From: a virus
Strand: one strand, 5' to 3'
DNA: 33,571 nucleotides
IMG/VR virus record: IMGVR_UViG_3300025897_000038
Location: 1-33,571 of that record
Positions within the stretch are counted from its first letter, which is position 1. Each line of letters opens with the position of its first letter. The notes below the pieces were generated by a model, which made no database searches, was not told where the DNA came from, and saw only the letters and a program-made list of their open reading frames with translations. The position numbers were made by a program, and so were the translations under genes. Positions 5,889 to 29,318 of this stretch are shown here, piece after piece.

Positions 5889-6218
5889 ATGAAAAAATAT
5901 ATAGTATTGTTAGCGTTATCGTTAACCATGTGTGTTCCAACTGCACCAGCAAAAGAAAGTTGGCCGTTTGAAGAAAAACAAAATTTTATATCAGTATGTT
6001 TTTCACGTATTGCAGCAGACGGTGATTTATTGAAAAAATATTCAACAACTATGTTAAAAAATATTTGTGATTGTACTGCAGATGAGTTAGAAAGAAGTTA
6101 TGATTGGGATACGTTTTCGGAAATAACTCAACCGCCTCTAACAAAAGAGACGGAGAGAAAGTTTTTTATAACTTCATATGAATGTGCATTAGCTGAAAAA
6201 TCAAAAGAGTTTATTTAA
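5889..6218 (+). CDS. Small exported protein with conserved cysteines, 109 aa
   Basis: The N-terminus MKKYIVLLALSLTMCVPTAPAKE is a signal peptide with a probable signal peptidase I site after APA (about residue 21). A Cys at residue 15 is preceded by Met, which does not fit a lipobox well. The mature part is about 88 residues and has four Cys, including ICDC near residues 56-59, so disulfides in the periplasm are likely. It is charged, mixed helical, and ends LAEKSKEFI. I recognise no domain name, although small periplasmic proteins with C-x-C near the middle are common in marine bacteria and their phages. Its TAA and the stop of the convergent nrdB gene lie within the same TTAA at 6215-6218. 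Confidence 0.68.
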   Translation: MKKYIVLLALSLTMCVPTAPAKESWPFEEKQNFISVCFSRIAADGDLLKKYSTTMLKNICDCTADELERSYDWDTFSEITQPPLTKETERKFFITSYECALAEKSKEFI

Positions 6219-7435
6219 GCTACTGCTTCTACAAAGTCATAATTAAATTTACCAATCAAACCACCAACTGTGTATTCAGTAACCTTGCCTTCAAAGAAGT
6301 TGGTGTGGTCTGGTGCATTTAGAATATAATCTAGCCAAGGTAATGGATTTTCTTTAATCTTATAGTTGCCTTTCAAACCAAGTTGAATCAATCTTCGGTC
6401 TGCCATATAACGAATGTACATCTTCATTTCTTCTTGTGTCAGACCTTCCATTTTAGAGAATCCAAATGCACGTTCTATGAACATATCTTCTAGTTCAACT
6501 GCTTTGCGAATCATACTGTAAATCTTTTTCTTAAATATATCATTGACAATTCTAGGATTTTCATTACAGTATGTTCTAAACAATTTTGCCATACCTTGAG
6601 CATGGAGATTTTCATCACGGATTGACCACTCGTTGATCTTTCCAAATCCTTTTAGCTTACCAAATCTTTGAAGATTTAATAACATAGCAAAAGAACTAAA
6701 CAAAACCAATCCTTCATTGATTACAGATTTTGCAATTGCAAGACCTGTGCCTTCCTTAGTATTAACATCAATATCTAACATGTAATCATGCTTCTTTCGC
6801 ATGTGTTCAATTTCTAAGAATGCACTATATTCTGATTCAGGAAATCCTATCGTATCATTGAACAGAGCATACGCTTCCTGATGTATAAATTCCCTCGCCG
6901 CAAAGCTTGCCAACATTTTACGTACTTCATTGTTCTTAAAAATTTTAAGATAATAATTAATGTAATTTTCTCCGACATTCACATCTGATTGTACAAACAA
7001 TGTCAGCACACTACGAATGAAATCTTTTTCACCTTGAGAAAGTTTACCAGATTTCCAATCATGTACATCATCCTCAAGTGATACTTCTTCTGGTATCCAA
7101 TGAATCTTCTCATGATTTTGTGCCATTTCAACTGCCCAGTCATAACGAAATGGTTTGTAAGTCACGGATGGAACTTCCAAACCACCAAATGCTTTTTTCA
7201 AAATCAAATCTTCTTGACTAATCAAATCGGTGTATGTACCGATATGTTTATCATCAATAAAGATTTGCGGAACCGTATTTACTTGCATACCATTAGAAAT
7301 TCTTTGATAGAAGTCTATTCGTTCTTGGTCATCATCCAAAACAATTTCTGTATATTCTAAAGCGTTATTCATAAACCATTCTTTAGCTTTTTGACAATAA
7401 CTACAACCTGTTTTAGAATAAATCTTAATTTCCAT
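6215..7435 (-). CDS. nrdB: Ribonucleotide reductase beta subunit with N-terminal glutaredoxin domain
   Basis: This is a fusion. Residues 1-85 are a glutaredoxin: active site CSYC (Cys11, Cys14) and the cis-proline segment TVPQIFI near 54-60. Residues about 95-406 are the class Ia radical-generating beta subunit. Diiron ligands are visible and correctly spaced: Asp151, Glu182, His185, Glu241, Glu275 and His278, with the radical tyrosine Tyr189 seven residues after Glu182, as in E. coli NrdB (84/115/118/122/204/238/241). The attached glutaredoxin is presumably the electron donor that regenerates the cysteine pair of NrdA, supplying dNTPs for phage DNA. Fusions of this kind are known in some bacteria. 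The gene follows nrdA with an AAGGAG ribosome-binding site overlapping the nrdA stop. The convergent gene ends in the same four bases. Confidence 0.95.
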   Translation of the reverse strand: MEIKIYSKTGCSYCQKAKEWFMNNALEYTEIVLDDDQERIDFYQRISNGMQVNTVPQIFIDDKHIGTYTDLISQEDLILKKAFGGLEVPSVTYKPFRYDWAVEMAQNHEKIHWIPEEVSLEDDVHDWKSGKLSQGEKDFIRSVLTLFVQSDVNVGENYINYYLKIFKNNEVRKMLASFAAREFIHQEAYALFNDTIGFPESEYSAFLEIEHMRKKHDYMLDIDVNTKEGTGLAIAKSVINEGLVLFSSFAMLLNLQRFGKLKGFGKINEWSIRDENLHAQGMAKLFRTYCNENPRIVNDIFKKKIYSMIRKAVELEDMFIERAFGFSKMEGLTQEEMKMYIRYMADRRLIQLGLKGNYKIKENPLPWLDYILNAPDHTNFFEGKVTEYTVGGLIGKFNYDFVEAVA

Positions 7436-24963: not shown

Positions 24964-25534
24964 ACGTTACCGTAAAAGAGTTAGCAATAAAAAAACTGTC
25001 TACTATATCAGTAAGCGGAGCAAGTAGATGCTTTTCTGTTGTCAAAACATTTATCCATTCCGAATTGTGTAAACTAGTATTTATTTCTAAAAATTTTTCC
25101 AGCATTTGAAATTTATTTGCGTTACCTTTGCCAGTTGCTAACTTTTTTACTTGTGTTGGTGCTATAATTAAGGGGTTAACTTTCTGATTTGAAAGGTATA
25201 ATTTAAAAATGCCAGTTGCTTCACCGATATCAAATATTCTACCCTTTGCGCCCATAGAATATCCTTCAAGCATTATAACATATTTTTTGTGAATGTCAAG
25301 TTTATTTTTTATTACTTCACTTAATTTCATAGCATTCTCTGAAAAACGAACCGAATTGTTTGTTGATTCAGATGATTCCGAAAACGTTATGTTATCGGGA
25401 AAAGCAATCTTTTTTAAACTTGGTTTTGAGTGTAGAAAATAGAATTCACAGTTTTCAAATAAATGTTTTTCTTTTGTATTCCAAAAGCAAATACAAGGAC
25501 TGCTAATGGAAAAATCAATACCTATGTGTAACAT
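24950..25534 (-). CDS. RuvC-like Holliday-junction resolvase
   Basis: ATG 25534 is preferred over 25549 because AGGAGC lies just upstream and the fold begins MLHIGIDFS. The RNase H-type acidic residues are visible: Asp7 in GIDFS, Glu90 in VIMLEGYS, and Asp176/Asp179 in LTDIVDSFFIA. Between them lie GRIFDIGEATGIF and APTQVKKLATGKGNANK, matching the RuvC-family segments around the second and third acidic residues. At 194 residues it is a normal single-domain size. It would resolve branched DNA before packaging, a role filled in T4 by the unrelated gp49. Overlap with thyX suggests coupled expression. Confidence 0.82.
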   Translation of the reverse strand: MLHIGIDFSISSPCICFWNTKEKHLFENCEFYFLHSKPSLKKIAFPDNITFSESSESTNNSVRFSENAMKLSEVIKNKLDIHKKYVIMLEGYSMGAKGRIFDIGEATGIFKLYLSNQKVNPLIIAPTQVKKLATGKGNANKFQMLEKFLEINTSLHNSEWINVLTTEKHLLAPLTDIVDSFFIANSFTVTYDKS

Positions 25535-25584
25535 AATGCTCCTAAACAATAATCTTTGTGATTACTTATTTAGGAGCAATGAAA

Positions 25585-25869
25585 TCAACTATCTTTAGTT
25601 TTCTTGTTGTCTACAAAGTCTTGAAATTGTTTTGCAACTGAAAGAATCTGGTCAACACCTGGATAGGATTTGCAATATTTTTCAAGATTCTCGGTTGTTT
25701 GTTGAAACATTTTCATTCCTTGTTCTTCATTCTTCTTCATCACTTCTTCAGCTAAATGAAATTGTCTTTCAATAGCACTTTGTTGCATATTGTACATTGA
25801 CTCAACATACTCTTTTGCGGTATTCAAAAGTTCTTGTCTGATTTGAAATGGATTTTTTGCATCTGTCAT
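25585..25869 (-). CDS. Small coiled-coil-like hypothetical protein, 94 aa
   Basis: A longer frame begins at 25953, but ATG 25869 follows CAGGTTAAT and gives MTDAKNPFQIRQELLNTAKEY, a start I associate with small helical proteins of T4-like marine phages. The protein is helical throughout, with Gln, Glu and Met in regular spacing (MQQSAIERQFHLAEEVMKK), suggesting a coiled coil; overall size and composition resemble phasin-like proteins. The tail is VAKQFQDFVDNKKTKDS. No catalytic motif. Function unknown; multimer formation is likely. Confidence 0.62.
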   Translation of the reverse strand: MTDAKNPFQIRQELLNTAKEYVESMYNMQQSAIERQFHLAEEVMKKNEEQGMKMFQQTTENLEKYCKSYPGVDQILSVAKQFQDFVDNKKTKDS

Positions 25870-25903
25870 ATTAACCTGTGTGTGTTGTGTGTTAAAATTA
25901 TAA

Positions 25904-26197
25904 TTAGTAGCTAACGCCAATTTTTTTATGAGAATGTTCTTCTTCCCAAGCACGTTGTCTTCTCTCTAAATCTTCATGACTAGTTGCCATAGCAAAATAA
26001 TTTTCCATCCTTTGCTGCTCAGTGAGAAAGAAACTTTTGAAAAAACTTTTTAAAAATTGTAATCTACTTTTGTGATGTTCGCTTTTGCGATTTTCTAGGA
26101 AGTTATTGTAAGCGTATTCAAAATCTCTTTTGTATTCAGATTTAAAATAGCTTTTTAATTCTTGGTCGGTTTCCCATTGTAGCATATTGGTGTACAT
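25904..26197 (-). CDS. Small protein with DUF3563-like C-terminus, 97 aa
   Basis: The ATG at 26197 follows AGGAGATAGG. The C-terminal part FAMATSHEDLERRQRAWEEE (residues about 69-88) resembles the DUF3563 pattern 'YLAqAtDlxDLErRmR', found in small proteobacterial proteins of unknown role. The N-terminal half is charged, aromatic and helical (SEYKRDFEYAYNNFLENRK), followed by a Phe-rich amphipathic segment (LQFLKSFFKSFFL). It precedes the coiled-coil gene in the same direction. A host-derived small regulator is possible but unproven. Confidence 0.62.
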   Translation of the reverse strand: MYTNMLQWETDQELKSYFKSEYKRDFEYAYNNFLENRKSEHHKSRLQFLKSFFKSFFLTEQQRMENYFAMATSHEDLERRQRAWEEEHSHKKIGVSY

Positions 26198-26242
26198 CCT
26201 ATCTCCTGTGTGTGTATGTGATGTATATGTGATGTATTGAAT

Positions 26243-26262
26243 GGTGCTTCCGAAGAAGCACC
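26243..26262 (-). terminator. Hairpin terminator candidate after hsp20
   Basis: GGTGCTTC/GAAGCACC forms an 8-bp perfect stem. On the minus strand the loop is TTCG, a very stable tetraloop common in phage terminators. It lies 20 bases beyond the hsp20 stop and before the next gene. A long U-run does not follow, so it may act as an mRNA 3'-end stabiliser or partial terminator rather than a full stop. Confidence 0.6.
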
Positions 26263-26281
26263 GCTGTATATATAAAATATA

Positions 26282-26767
26282 TTAGGCGATAAGTTTCTTC
26301 ACATTGTCAATGACTCTTGAAACAACATCAGAACTCTCTCCTAATTCAATTTTTATCGGCTTATCTTCTTCCGGTATTTCATGCTCAAGTGCAACGTATA
26401 GCATTCCATCTTTCATATCCGCTGCAAGAACTTTCATGTTCTCACCTAATGCAAAAGACTTTTTAAAAGAACGATTAGCGATACCACGATATACAAAACC
26501 ATCATCATTCTTTTCTTCTTTCTTGCCTTCTACAATTAGATAATTCTTTTCTCTGGTTATATTTACCTCATCACGATTGAAGCCAGCAACGGCCATTTCA
26601 ATAAGATATGAATTATCTCTTTTGCGAATATTATGTGGGGGAAAACTGGTAGTTGTTGATGTGGAGAAAGCTTGATCATCAAAGATTTGTTCCATACGGT
26701 CAAACAAATCTACAGTATGACGAAAAACTCGGTCCAGGTCATTGGTTGAATAGCGAGTTAAAAACAT
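26282..26767 (-). CDS. Small heat-shock protein (Hsp20/alpha-crystallin)
   Basis: The alpha-crystallin domain spans residues about 42-140: the start 'FPPHNIRKRDNSYLIEMAVAGF', then VEGKKEEKNDDGFVYRGIANRSFKKSFALGEN and 'ADMKDGMLYVALEHE', ending with the I-x-I/V-type tail 'PIKIELGES'. The N-terminus MFLTRYSTNDLDRVFRHTVD resembles IbpA-type proteins. It holds unfolded proteins without ATP and, in phages, may help capsid assembly or protect the host during infection. The ribosome-binding site is a perfect AAGGAGG. The 270-bp region upstream contains five hairpins, the last of which can pair with this site. A TTCG hairpin follows the stop. Confidence 0.95.
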   Translation of the reverse strand: MFLTRYSTNDLDRVFRHTVDLFDRMEQIFDDQAFSTSTTTSFPPHNIRKRDNSYLIEMAVAGFNRDEVNITREKNYLIVEGKKEEKNDDGFVYRGIANRSFKKSFALGENMKVLAADMKDGMLYVALEHEIPEEDKPIKIELGESSDVVSRVIDNVKKLIA

Positions 26768-26771
26768 AATG

Positions 26772-26917
26772 CCTCCTTAAAAAGCGAGATTATATTGCGC
26801 AGCTTGCGCCTTAATATAACGCAATCCCCAAATGGGCGATTGCTTTTTAAACCAATTCTCTAGTGAATTGGCTGAGAAGGCTCTTCTGCCTTCTCTAAAC
26901 TATTTAGATAGTTTTTA
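26772..26917 (-). promoter_or_regulatory. Multi-hairpin hsp20 leader; candidate RNA thermometer
   Basis: Read toward hsp20, the hairpins are: AAACTA/TAGTTT (26898-26915); GAGAAGGC/GCCTTCTC (26875-26896); CCAATTC/GAATTGG (26853-26872); GCAATC-CCC/GGG-GATTGC with one bulge (26822-26844), which has a five-T run on its plus-strand side; and TTATATT-GCGC/GCGC-AATATAA with a three-base bulge (26791-26820). Just before the start, GCTTTTTAAGGAGGC (26772-26786) can fold so that GCUUU pairs with GAGGC, covering the Shine-Dalgarno with weak U-G and U-A pairs. The rest of the 26768-27038 gap shows no convincing gene. Structured leaders that melt with heat control hsp20 genes in bacteria (ROSE, fourU); applying that here is inference. 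Confidence 0.5.
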
Positions 26918-27038
26918 TTTAATTTTTCTTTAATTAATTTTATACTAACAAGAGTAATGCCAAATGCCATTCCTCCAAAATAAAAAATTATAAAATACTC
27001 ATTCATAAGATACCATAATTTTTAATAAATGTCAAGAG

Positions 27039-27608
27039 TTATTTTTTATAAATCGGCCAATGTTCAAATATAATAAATTCTTCTGGATCACTTCTACCTT
27101 TATCATAATCTGCATTATGATTGTGTTTGGGTTTTGGTATAAATCCACTTTCAATATTCGTAGGCAACTCTCTTAATTCTTTTCTATATTTTTTTAAATC
27201 CTCACTTACAACAACAGCATCTTCTACACATTTTAAAACTTCAATATCAGATTTATATAATCTGATGTCTCTACTCGCACGTAAAAACATCATTGGGTCA
27301 TCTTGTAAATGTGGCGGAGTTTCTACTTCATGTTCTATCACATCTGAAGAATGCATTGTAGTATCTTGAATTGCTACTTCATTTACTAAAGGTTTTATAG
27401 GTTCTTCGTATATCCAAGAAGTACCATTTTCATCTAATTTAGCAGGCATACAATCTGCTAATTTATCAATGTTCGGTTCTTCAATGTCTATAGCGTCAGC
27501 GGGAATAACATATCTTTTATTGTCTTTAGGGTCTTTAAAACAGTTAATTGTTTCTACATAATAACCATCTTTATTTACAATACAAAATTTTTTTGATTCT
27601 TCATTCAT
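27039..27608 (-). CDS. Probable tail-fibre assembly chaperone, 189 aa
   Basis: The protein sits directly downstream of three collar-domain fibre genes. Its N-terminal half (KFCIVNKDGYYVETINCF ... YVIPADAI ... NGTSWIYEEP) resembles fibre-assembly chaperones that begin with a beta-rich region. The C-terminal part has 'LRASRDIRLYKSDIEVLK' followed by 'LKKYRKELRELPTNIES', matching the 'RxxRLxxSDW...YRxxLRDLP' pattern of phage tail-assembly chaperone domains (Phage_tail_APC-like). The usual Trp after SD is replaced by Ile-Glu. Such proteins help fibre trimers fold and are not in the virion. The final 30 residues are His/Asn/Lys-rich. Position and C-terminal motif support the call; the N-terminal half is less certain. 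Confidence 0.75.
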   Translation of the reverse strand: MNEESKKFCIVNKDGYYVETINCFKDPKDNKRYVIPADAIDIEEPNIDKLADCMPAKLDENGTSWIYEEPIKPLVNEVAIQDTTMHSSDVIEHEVETPPHLQDDPMMFLRASRDIRLYKSDIEVLKCVEDAVVVSEDLKKYRKELRELPTNIESGFIPKPKHNHNADYDKGRSDPEEFIIFEHWPIYKK

Positions 27609-27629
27609 AATTTACACCTATTTAAATTA

Positions 27630-29318
27630 TTAATATTTAATATACAATTTCAATGCTATATTATTCGGTCTAGTATCTCCATCACCATAATCATTTACTT
27701 GAAGAAAACTATGAGAGTGGTCTCCGGCTTCTCTAGTCGGGCTGCCTCCAGAATAAGCAGTGGTAAAGTTTCCTGTTGAACCTTGGTCCGTTTCTTTTAT
27801 TGTTTGATTAAACATTTCATATATTCTTGTATAATAATGAAATGATGCTCTCTTTTGTCTTACATTTTGATAAGTAGGTACAGGTACATTAACACATTGC
27901 CTCCCCACGAAAGGTACATTAACACATACTTGACTATTAACATAATAAAGTATCGTTCTCTCCTGTTGACCAGTATAGTAAGCATAATAATAAGTATAAG
28001 ATTGAGTTTCATTTTTTTGATTCGGGTACACTTTATTATATCCAATATAAGATGTGTATGAATTATAATTTGTATCTCTATTAGGACCCCCATTCAATAC
28101 AGGACCTTTATCAATATTTCCATCAGTGCGAGAATCATATTGATAGGTTTCTATATTTGCATGAACGTGTTTAATATATGCAGAATACCTATTATTATAT
28201 GAATTGTATCTTTTTAATTGTTGATTTCCTCTGTATTCGCCCGATGCTTCTGCAGCAAAACTACCGTTTGGACTGAAACTCCCAACGTAACCCCCCGGCC
28301 ATTGCTGTACAGAACCTGAACCTATATCAGAACGCCATAATTCCTCTGAAGAACTATAAAAACTAAGGTTTTCTCCTTGTGAAAATAACCTTGATGGTAC
28401 ATAGGTCCAATTATTACTGTAATATAAATAGCTTTCATTTTTTGGAGTTAAGTCGTCACTTACATCAGTTTTAAATTGATATGTATTGCGAGAACTATTA
28501 CCTAAATCGTGGTCTAAATCTCCATCAGTTGACCCAAACTTGTTAGTAGAATTTATTCTATCTCCATCAAAACGAACTAAATTTTTTCCTTCATGATGAT
28601 GTTGTTTAACATTAGATACTTCTTCATTAAATATTTGTAAAGCTGGAATATTTAAATTTTGTCTTGTTAATTTTGTTGAGTCTGTATTATCTGGTGAATA
28701 TCTGTTTGAACCAGGACCTGTGTTATCTGGATTATAACATCTTACAAAATATCCCCTCACCTCAGGAATTGAAAATTCTAAACCTGTTGGGAGATTTTCT
28801 CCTGCTTCTCCAGATGCTTTAACATTATTTTTTATAAGAGAAACACCCCAAGATGATAATATTTCATAAAGTTTTGTGTACTTAGTTGATAATCTTGTTG
28901 CGGGGTCTGTACCTATAAATGCCATTTTGCGTTGACCATTACATTCTAACCAACCATCAGGATCTACTAATTCACCTGTTTTTCTTTCTGTATATGCAAA
29001 ATATTGTAAAGTACCAGCAGGAATAATAGGCAATCCAGAATCAGAAATACCATCTTGTATTCGCATATCACTAAACATTCTTGGCTTTGCATAACTGTAT
29101 CTGTCTTCAAATACAGCAAATTGTCCTTTAGAGGGTTCAAAAAGTTCTCTTTCTGGCTTATAATTATTTAATATAAGTGTTTTGTGATCTATTAGTGAAG
29201 TTGCCATCGCTTTTAGTCTTTGTATATCCAATTTGGATGTATCTAAAAGCTGTCGTTTTCTGTCAACTGCAGTTGACCTATTAGAAAAGTAATCAGGGGG
29301 TATGGGTATTCTACTCAT
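27630..29318 (-). CDS. Tail-fibre/collar-domain adhesin, 562 aa
   Basis: After an N-terminal attachment-like region (residues 1-95), a collar domain lies at about 96-200: AGTLQYFAYTERKTG, DGWLECNGQRK, then EVRGYFVRCYNPDN (the 'lPDxRGyFvR' signature). The second half (about 210-540) is rich in Tyr, Asn, Ser and Gly. It carries an imperfect repeat with cysteines (QVCVNVPF/RQCVNVPVP) and a Tyr-rich segment (TQSYTYYYAYYTGQQER). The end, DTRPNNIALKLYIKY, matches the collar-fibre ending 'TRPxNxxxxxxIKY'. It should form trimers for host recognition. It is preceded by a TATAAATA element inside the upstream gene and is the largest of three paralogues in a row. Confidence 0.87.
   Translation of the reverse strand: MSRIPIPPDYFSNRSTAVDRKRQLLDTSKLDIQRLKAMATSLIDHKTLILNNYKPERELFEPSKGQFAVFEDRYSYAKPRMFSDMRIQDGISDSGLPIIPAGTLQYFAYTERKTGELVDPDGWLECNGQRKMAFIGTDPATRLSTKYTKLYEILSSWGVSLIKNNVKASGEAGENLPTGLEFSIPEVRGYFVRCYNPDNTGPGSNRYSPDNTDSTKLTRQNLNIPALQIFNEEVSNVKQHHHEGKNLVRFDGDRINSTNKFGSTDGDLDHDLGNSSRNTYQFKTDVSDDLTPKNESYLYYSNNWTYVPSRLFSQGENLSFYSSSEELWRSDIGSGSVQQWPGGYVGSFSPNGSFAAEASGEYRGNQQLKRYNSYNNRYSAYIKHVHANIETYQYDSRTDGNIDKGPVLNGGPNRDTNYNSYTSYIGYNKVYPNQKNETQSYTYYYAYYTGQQERTILYYVNSQVCVNVPFVGRQCVNVPVPTYQNVRQKRASFHYYTRIYEMFNQTIKETDQGSTGNFTTAYSGGSPTREAGDHSHSFLQVNDYGDGDTRPNNIALKLYIKY

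Follow-up and report, generated by a model that had tools for sequence, protein, structure and literature searches.

We propose that an hsp20 gene carried by a marine T4-like phage is preceded by a late-transcribed, five-hairpin, ROSE-like RNA thermometer that gates the translation of Hsp20, a reading to which we assign a probability of roughly 0.78. The leader was found in a stretch of 33,571 nucleotides (IMG/VR record IMGVR_UViG_3300025897_000038, positions 1 to 33,571; hereafter, the window); its neighbours on the minus strand are a tail-fibre-assembly-like gene that ends at 27039 and hsp20 itself, with its start codon at 26767-26765. Sequence comparison with relatives established the structure of the leader, the register of the pairing over its Shine-Dalgarno (SD) sequence, its conservation and its restriction to hsp20, and the temperature response that we ascribe to it would, by analogy, be that of the ROSE family.

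The hsp20 leader and its hairpins

The product of the gene matched small heat shock protein profiles (Pfam PF00011, E 6.5e-19; PHROG 432 Hsp20, E 1.4e-36). Its neighbours, which include genes for a family-B DNA polymerase, UvsX, a DnaB-like helicase, a RuvC-like resolvase, tail collar proteins and ribonucleotide reductase, indicate a T4-like phage that is distant from cultured ones; the DNA polymerase is 41% identical to that of Synechococcus phage S-SM2, and a blastn search of 25500-27700 against phages gave no match. Two related loci, L001 and L002, have leaders identical or near-identical to that of the window, and the rest of the window clade consists of L003, L004, L094 and L104, whose Hsp20 proteins are 82%, 75%, 72% and 59% identical to the window's, respectively. 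Elsewhere in the window, the small subunit of ribonucleotide reductase (6215-7435, minus strand) carries an N-terminal thioredoxin/glutaredoxin-like domain (PHROG 22 over residues 1-71, PHROG 86 over residues 80-393). On the 3' side of hsp20 (26198-26281, minus strand) there is a strong UUCG-capped hairpin, GGTGCTTCTTCGGAAGCACC, which lies 26-45 bases past the stop codon, lacks a T run and is a possible 3' end or processing site.

The leader folds into four strong RNA hairpins and one weak hairpin over the SD, and its features, with the gene and two putative promoters, are as follows.

26282-26767, minus strand: hsp20, encoding a small heat shock protein of 161 aa, start codon 26767-26765; the putatively regulated gene
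26778-26772, minus strand: Shine-Dalgarno sequence AAGGAGG
26773-26788, minus strand: candidate ROSE-type thermosensor hairpin, formed by CUC (26788-26786), bulged G26785, CUU (26784-26782), a UUU loop and AAGGAG (26778-26773)
26787-26783, minus strand: UCGCU motif, facing AGGA (26777-26774)
26789-26820, minus strand: hairpin D, an extra stem between helper hairpin and thermosensor, from the fold and covariation
26821-26843, minus strand: hairpin C, the conserved helper hairpin GCAAUC[G]CCC-AUUU-GGGGAUUGC, with a bulged G of its own
26851-26872, minus strand: hairpin A', additional, from the fold; found in the window and the near-identical L001 and L002 only
26874-26895, minus strand: hairpin B, a perfect 8-bp stem (GAGAAGGC/GCCTTCTC) at the predicted 5' end of the late transcript
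26901-26908, minus strand: candidate T4-type late promoter TCTAAATA, predicted +1 at G26895, inside the inverted repeat 26898-26915
27007-27035, minus strand: second promoter, sigma-70-like (TTGACA-N17-TATCTT, 10 of 12), a possible early promoter

These hairpins are real and far above chance. Perfect stems of at least 6 bp number four in 26772-26917 against 0.48 expected from dinucleotide shuffles, none of 500 of which reached four, and five such stems fall in the 130 nt where they are most crowded in the window, a segment that includes this leader, compared with a maximum of four in 40 shuffles of the window. The RNA from 26765 to 26897 (minus strand) folds at -50.8 kcal/mol against -30.3 ± 3.8 kcal/mol in shuffles (z = -5.4; 0 of 200). 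All five inverted repeats listed in an earlier note on this DNA are present to within 1 base, as is the sequence GCTTTTTAAGGAGGC that it described beside them. Its picture of five tandem hairpins held in part: the repeats exist, but the one at 26898-26915 is not conserved and is better read as the late promoter, and the one at 26851-26872 is private to near-identical copies.

Hairpin C is the counterpart of the GAUGCC...GGGUC hairpin of Rfam ROSE_3 in alignments of relatives; the L104 leader aligns with ROSE_3 weakly but in register. Hairpin D occurs in the window, L003, L004 and L094; it is an insertion, being absent from L104. Hairpin A' is missing in L003, L004, L094 and L104, and the site of hairpin B is occupied in L003, L004 and L094 by a stem with a different sequence. 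The window thus has an enlarged ROSE-like leader and L104 a near-standard one with one extra 5' stem. A hydrophobic small ORF of ~48 aa (27005-26859, minus strand; MNEYFIIFYFGGMAFGITLVSIKLI...), placed between the sigma-70-like site and the hairpins, overlaps both the candidate late promoter and two of the hairpins (B and A'), and a shorter counterpart (MTLTEYFALFYLAGVFTGMLLYTYRIFIKKW) lies in the same place in L003.

Shine-Dalgarno pairing and the ROSE-like class

The earlier note saw that GCUUU can pair with GAGGC over the SD, and for the window by itself this is indeed the local pairing of lowest energy, but this register is rejected by the clade consensus and by covariation among phage leaders. 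The consensus fold of the window, L003, L004, L094 and L104 (RNAalifold) gave CUC[G]CUU/AAGGAG with one bulged G, and G26785 is unpaired in it. In this structure 96.7% of cells were paired across the five leaders, a share that dropped to at most 49% when the partners were slid by 1-3 columns. Pairs with double changes numbered six against 2.3 in shuffles (0 of 500), and all were in hairpin C, where four of ten pairs carry compensatory double changes, and hairpin D, where two pairs changed on both sides. The stems are thus kept in relatives through compensatory changes.

Covariation over a broader set supports the same register. Among 154 distinct phage leaders, the pair at -2/+5 was Watson-Crick in 70 (36.7 expected) and the first inner pair in 97 (78.8 expected), levels reached by none of 2000 shuffles, although the shuffles used for covariation ignore relatedness and the figures are not probabilities. 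The neighbouring, shifted registers showed no covariation, and the pairs flanking the bulged G covaried in the ROSE register only. Shared descent is an unlikely cause, because 68 cellular leaders gave the same ROSE-register covariation, including A-U and G-C swaps at -1/+4. Pair counts over the diverse phage leaders came from a script anchored on the core, a MAFFT alignment being too ragged to model. The UYGCU/AGGA core is the most invariant part of the leader family and the 5' stem is less so; since the 154-leader set was selected for U-Y-G-C-U/A-G-G-A, invariance of the core within it proves nothing, whereas the flanking pairs were unselected. A fourU thermometer was considered and rejected: only in the window could the U run at 26783-26779 form such a helix, by G-U pairs, and the sequence at this place in L003 and L004 is UUAAU.

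ROSE elements are defined by a U(U/C)GCU motif facing the SD, a bulged G, non-canonical pairs and two to four hairpins with the SD in the terminal one; their one to three upstream hairpins are stable, and the elements open upon warming (PMC3669281, PMC11342760, PMC11182007). The window leader has U(U/C)GCU opposite the SD in its 3'-proximal hairpin, an imperfect helix with a bulged G, a position in the 5' UTR of a small heat-shock gene, and stable hairpins (B, A', C and D) upstream of the SD hairpin, which makes five in all against a published maximum of four; in L104 there are three. The earlier suggestion of a thermometer-type hsp20 leader whose last hairpin masks the ribosome-binding site is therefore supported by UCGCU opposite AGGA, the bulged G, the helper hairpin and the specificity for hsp20, and it can be narrowed to a ROSE-like leader.

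In Rfam searches at the gathering cut-off, the window and 17 loci returned tRNAs only, and the Rfam ROSE families did not match the window leader even at E 10, where only unrelated chance matches appeared. Relatives came closer. Six hsp20 leaders matched ROSE_3 at E 1e-4 to 3e-7 and one matched Rfam ROSE at 2e-5, and the L026 leader aligned end to end with ROSE_3 (E 4.7e-6 against the whole library). Rfam ROSE scores of relatives reached at most 34.9 bits against a gathering cut-off of 43, with L104 at 16 bits (E 0.26). Being below the cut-off, the window leader is ROSE-like only and not a member of Rfam ROSE.

The closest known systems are the bacterial ROSE elements (B. japonicum ROSE1, E. 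coli ibpA and Pseudomonas ibpA; Rfam ROSE RF00435 and ROSE_3 RF02523), with which the window shares U(U/C)GCU opposite AGGA, the bulged G, a stable upstream helper hairpin and the hsp20 gene; the core of the E. coli ibpA leader, CUCGCU...AGGAG, is the same letter for letter. Unlike these, the window element sits in a lytic T4-like phage, has a predicted phage late promoter instead of a sigma-32 promoter, and has five hairpins, since one or two additional stems precede or separate the two that are usual, and the Rfam models miss it. The two-hairpin ROSE of Pseudomonas ibpA, a GC-rich first hairpin plus a short thermosensor near the start codon (PMC3669281), is built like the majority of the other phage leaders in this study; the window clade differs from it in hairpin D and other insertions, and the phage helper hairpin has its own bulged G (UGCC...GGGU). 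The cyanobacterial hsp17 thermometer, which is relevant to cyanophage hosts, likewise precedes a small heat-shock gene but is described as a single hairpin with a 1x3 bulge and not of the UYGCU/AGGA type of the cyanophage genes in this study (PMC4477652).

Folding of the leader with ViennaRNA predicted an SD that is mostly paired from 10 to 55 °C, rather than free at all temperatures, with pairing of ~0.88-1.0 at 10 °C and 0.44-0.93 at 55 °C and no sharp melt. The cost of opening the SD fell from 8.4 kcal/mol at 10 °C to 4.1 kcal/mol at 42 °C (2.9 to 2.5 in the E. coli ibpA control), but this temperature series cannot decide the question because the proven E. coli ibpA thermometer shows no melting in the same calculation, which uses a nearest-neighbour energy model without the relevant non-canonical pairs. 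In some relatives (L026, Melnitz) the prediction left most of the SD unpaired. Compared with many other phages, the window clade seems to have a more stable SD hairpin, which may therefore switch at a high temperature or need the ribosome to open it. The phage may also simply have kept the leader along with a gene acquired from bacteria.

A putative late promoter and possible modes of control

Upstream of the hairpins, TCTAAATA agrees with the T4 late promoter TATAAATA at seven of eight positions and with the CTAAATA variant of the T4-like phage Aeh1, which begins at -12 (the T4 octamer spans -13 to -6; PMC1524935). The start predicted from it, G26895, coincides with the first base of hairpin B, just as the starts predicted in L003 and L004 coincide with the first bases of their B stems. 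The inverted repeat around the promoter (26898-26915, AACTATCTAAATAGTTT) was rejected as an RNA hairpin: it is a palindrome in the window only, and L003 and L004 retain CTAAATAGTTTT and lose the palindrome. With CTAAATA at its centre, it is better read as the late promoter.

This arrangement recurs among phages. Of 151 phage hsp20 leaders, 45 contain TATAAATA, where 2.6 would be expected. A late-promoter-like octamer was recognised in 74 leaders, and most of these have their predicted start at the foot of the first hairpin or only a few bases away from it, some stems having been extended upstream by the fold. This coincidence, together with the enrichment of the octamer, suggests a leader tailored to late transcription from the phage's own promoter, a fusion seemingly peculiar to phages, and we infer that hsp20 is transcribed late from the predicted start. 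A promoter scan found as many promoter-like sites in the leader region as in shuffles. In the gap from the hairpins to hsp20, where a transcription start would have spoken against a thermometer, it detected no sigma-70-like site on the minus strand. TTGACA-type promoters, like that at 27007-27035, also lie upstream of the leader in L003, L004, L094 and L104.

We infer further that the hairpins form in the cell and that the leader opens with temperature. In the mechanism we propose, the T4-type late promoter (CTAAATA, 26907-26901) would start the hsp20 mRNA at about G26895, and the transcript would open with the stable hairpin B, continue with the stable hairpins A', C and D, and reach a last, weak hairpin in which UCGCU is imperfectly paired with the SD AGGA around the bulged G. 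In the cold, this SD hairpin would bar ribosomes from hsp20. On warming, it would be the first to open, with the other hairpins still closed, and Hsp20 could then be made at once from pre-existing mRNA.

The leader could instead be mainly a protein-binding autoregulatory site, at which phage Hsp20 blocks its own translation until it is titrated by unfolded proteins, the hairpins sensing aggregation rather than, or besides, temperature. E. coli IbpA sets the precedent: it binds its own ROSE-bearing 5' UTR and represses itself, for which it needs R93 and an aromatic residue at position 34, and repression is lost in K98A (PMC10474464). Arginine is found at the position of R93 in 170 of 178 ROSE-bearing phage Hsp20 proteins (R99 in the window) and Y or F at the position of residue 34 in all of them (F42 in the window), and the conserved stable hairpins could serve as a binding site. 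At the position of K98, however, most phage proteins carry S, T or A (S in the window), and R93 is equally kept in 12 phage Hsp20 proteins without a ROSE core, so that its conservation is untied to the leader. We consider autoregulation unlikely as the main role, but both kinds of control can operate side by side, and in E. coli they do.

Less probable again is that the hairpins chiefly stabilise the late hsp20 mRNA through a 5'-terminal stem and that pairing of the SD is incidental. The predicted late start, which in most of the 74 leaders lies at or beside the foot of the first hairpin, would suit a 5'-protecting stem, and the stable hairpin of pseudomonal ROSE elements may act likewise (PMC3669281), but it is the core and not the 5' stem that varies least, the flanks of the core covary, and the element is restricted to hsp20 instead of recurring at late genes in general. 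Hairpin B probably has such a stabilising role in addition to the thermometer, not instead of it, and both alternatives that the earlier note named, protein binding and 5'-end stability, may apply as well. We give very little credence to the repeats being terminators or DNA sites for a regulator, with no role in the mRNA. Palindromes can bind dimers, and the plus strand reads GCAATC...GATTGC followed by TTTTT; a terminator scan nevertheless found none, compensatory changes keep the RNA stems, and the position of the element is fixed relative to the start codon. In cyanophage S-PM2, the hsp20 core (AAACTCGCTTAAATA) has been listed as a predicted Pho box, yet it was not bound by PhoB and the gene showed no phosphate response (PMC10976474), which agrees with an RNA element.

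Distribution among phages and meaning

The motif UYGCU-N(1-12)-AGGA stands just before the start codon of 155 of 167 distinct viral-contig hsp20 genes, a proportion inflated by the few distinct genes among 29 stretches that were pre-selected for the motif; many viral survey loci were first found by protein similarity and not by their leader. The core was also present at all 12 loci from named phage records, 11 of them genuine (11 of 11 cultured phages), and before 68 of 77 bacterial hsp20 genes. Before other genes it was seen in 21 of 2347 cases, 13 of which are unflagged hsp20 by their listed peptides, leaving about 8 in 2,334. The 12 viral genes without the core (L136, L140, L151, L152, L156, L158, L160, L161, L165, L170, L182 and L255) are mostly plain-SD genes without such a leader; L170 is instead cut off at the contig end. 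In L136, L140, L151, L152, L158, L161, L165 and L182, a plain SD lies close behind the upstream gene, and these loci offer a natural contrast group.

Searches by pattern and by structure led back to hsp20. The pattern of the clade's SD hairpin alone (TCGCTTNNTAAGGAGGCNWTATG) occurred in 29 stretches among 2.9 million viral contigs, and the 30-residue frames downstream of all 29 resemble Hsp20 N-termini. A covariance model (R1) built from the window clade alone, with matches taken at E up to 1, gave 35 matches in 275 kb, namely the window and 34 leaders (56 other loci were searched), and all 34 end at the hsp20 start. Over whole records, its single match was the hsp20 leader in the window, L004, L094, L104, L011, P-TIM68, HTVC115P and S-RIM12; in S-CRM01 it found the hsp20 leader and one weaker second match, and in the P-HM2, Melnitz-3 and S-SRM01 records it found no match, though their leaders carry the motif by eye. 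An alignment of all 23 Hsp20 had no stretch conserved enough for a search, and smaller alignments worked.

In a search of open-access papers, we found none linking ROSE elements or thermometers with phage hsp20. The phage thermometers described there are of the fourU kind (SPbeta blyA, PMC10586365; a Caudoviricetes sigma-70 gene, PMC11182007); they too are RNA thermometers in phage genomes, but they have four U opposite the SD, belong to other genes and are single cases. A ROSE core before about nine in ten of the phage hsp20 copies checked thus seems not to have been reported before, and what appears new here is a widespread phage ROSE-like set and its enlarged architecture in the window clade. 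More tentatively, and with the balance slightly against it, phages may own a ROSE class in which elements of two to five hairpins sit directly on a late promoter across T4-like and pelagiphage lineages (cyanophages, pelagiphages, methylophages and the window clade). The late mRNA would begin at the first hairpin, and host heat, or misfolded virion protein titrating Hsp20 off the leader, would switch on the chaperone during assembly.

The hsp20 gene is a core gene of marine T4-like cyanophages, and its role in infection has only been guessed at ('scaffolding', PMC3037559). A thermometer before nearly all phage hsp20 genes would imply that phages need Hsp20 on demand, by temperature or by protein damage, and that control by the leader has been retained despite strong selection for compact genomes. 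It would also provide a testable link from ocean warming and heat waves to phage infection, in the cultured S-PM2 and its relatives, P-HM2, HTVC115P and Melnitz. The phage leaders, which come from cold as well as warm waters, also form an extensive natural collection of ROSE variants that could show how such RNAs set their melting point.

Several records deserve separate mention. In Prochlorococcus phage P-HM2 (PHM2_147), the annotated hsp20 start is upstream of and inside the ROSE-like leader; its motif, TCGCTATAATAGGAG, has a start codon directly after it, which suggests that the true start is ~70 bases further down. The hsp20 gene of S-SRM01 is annotated in the same way. The Campylobacter phage A11a record (MG065691, 73506-75056, 'unverified') contains an hsp20 gene and a leader core identical to that of E. 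coli ibpA (TTCTCGCTGATTTCAGGAGCTATTGATTATG); this gene is probably bacterial DNA within a phage record, and the same may hold for two Salmonella 'phage' matches (H35, H36). A MAG contig of Synechococcus sp. CPC35 carries hsp20 with a phage-like ROSE leader (TTGCTAAAAACAGGAGG) and may be phage DNA binned with its host.
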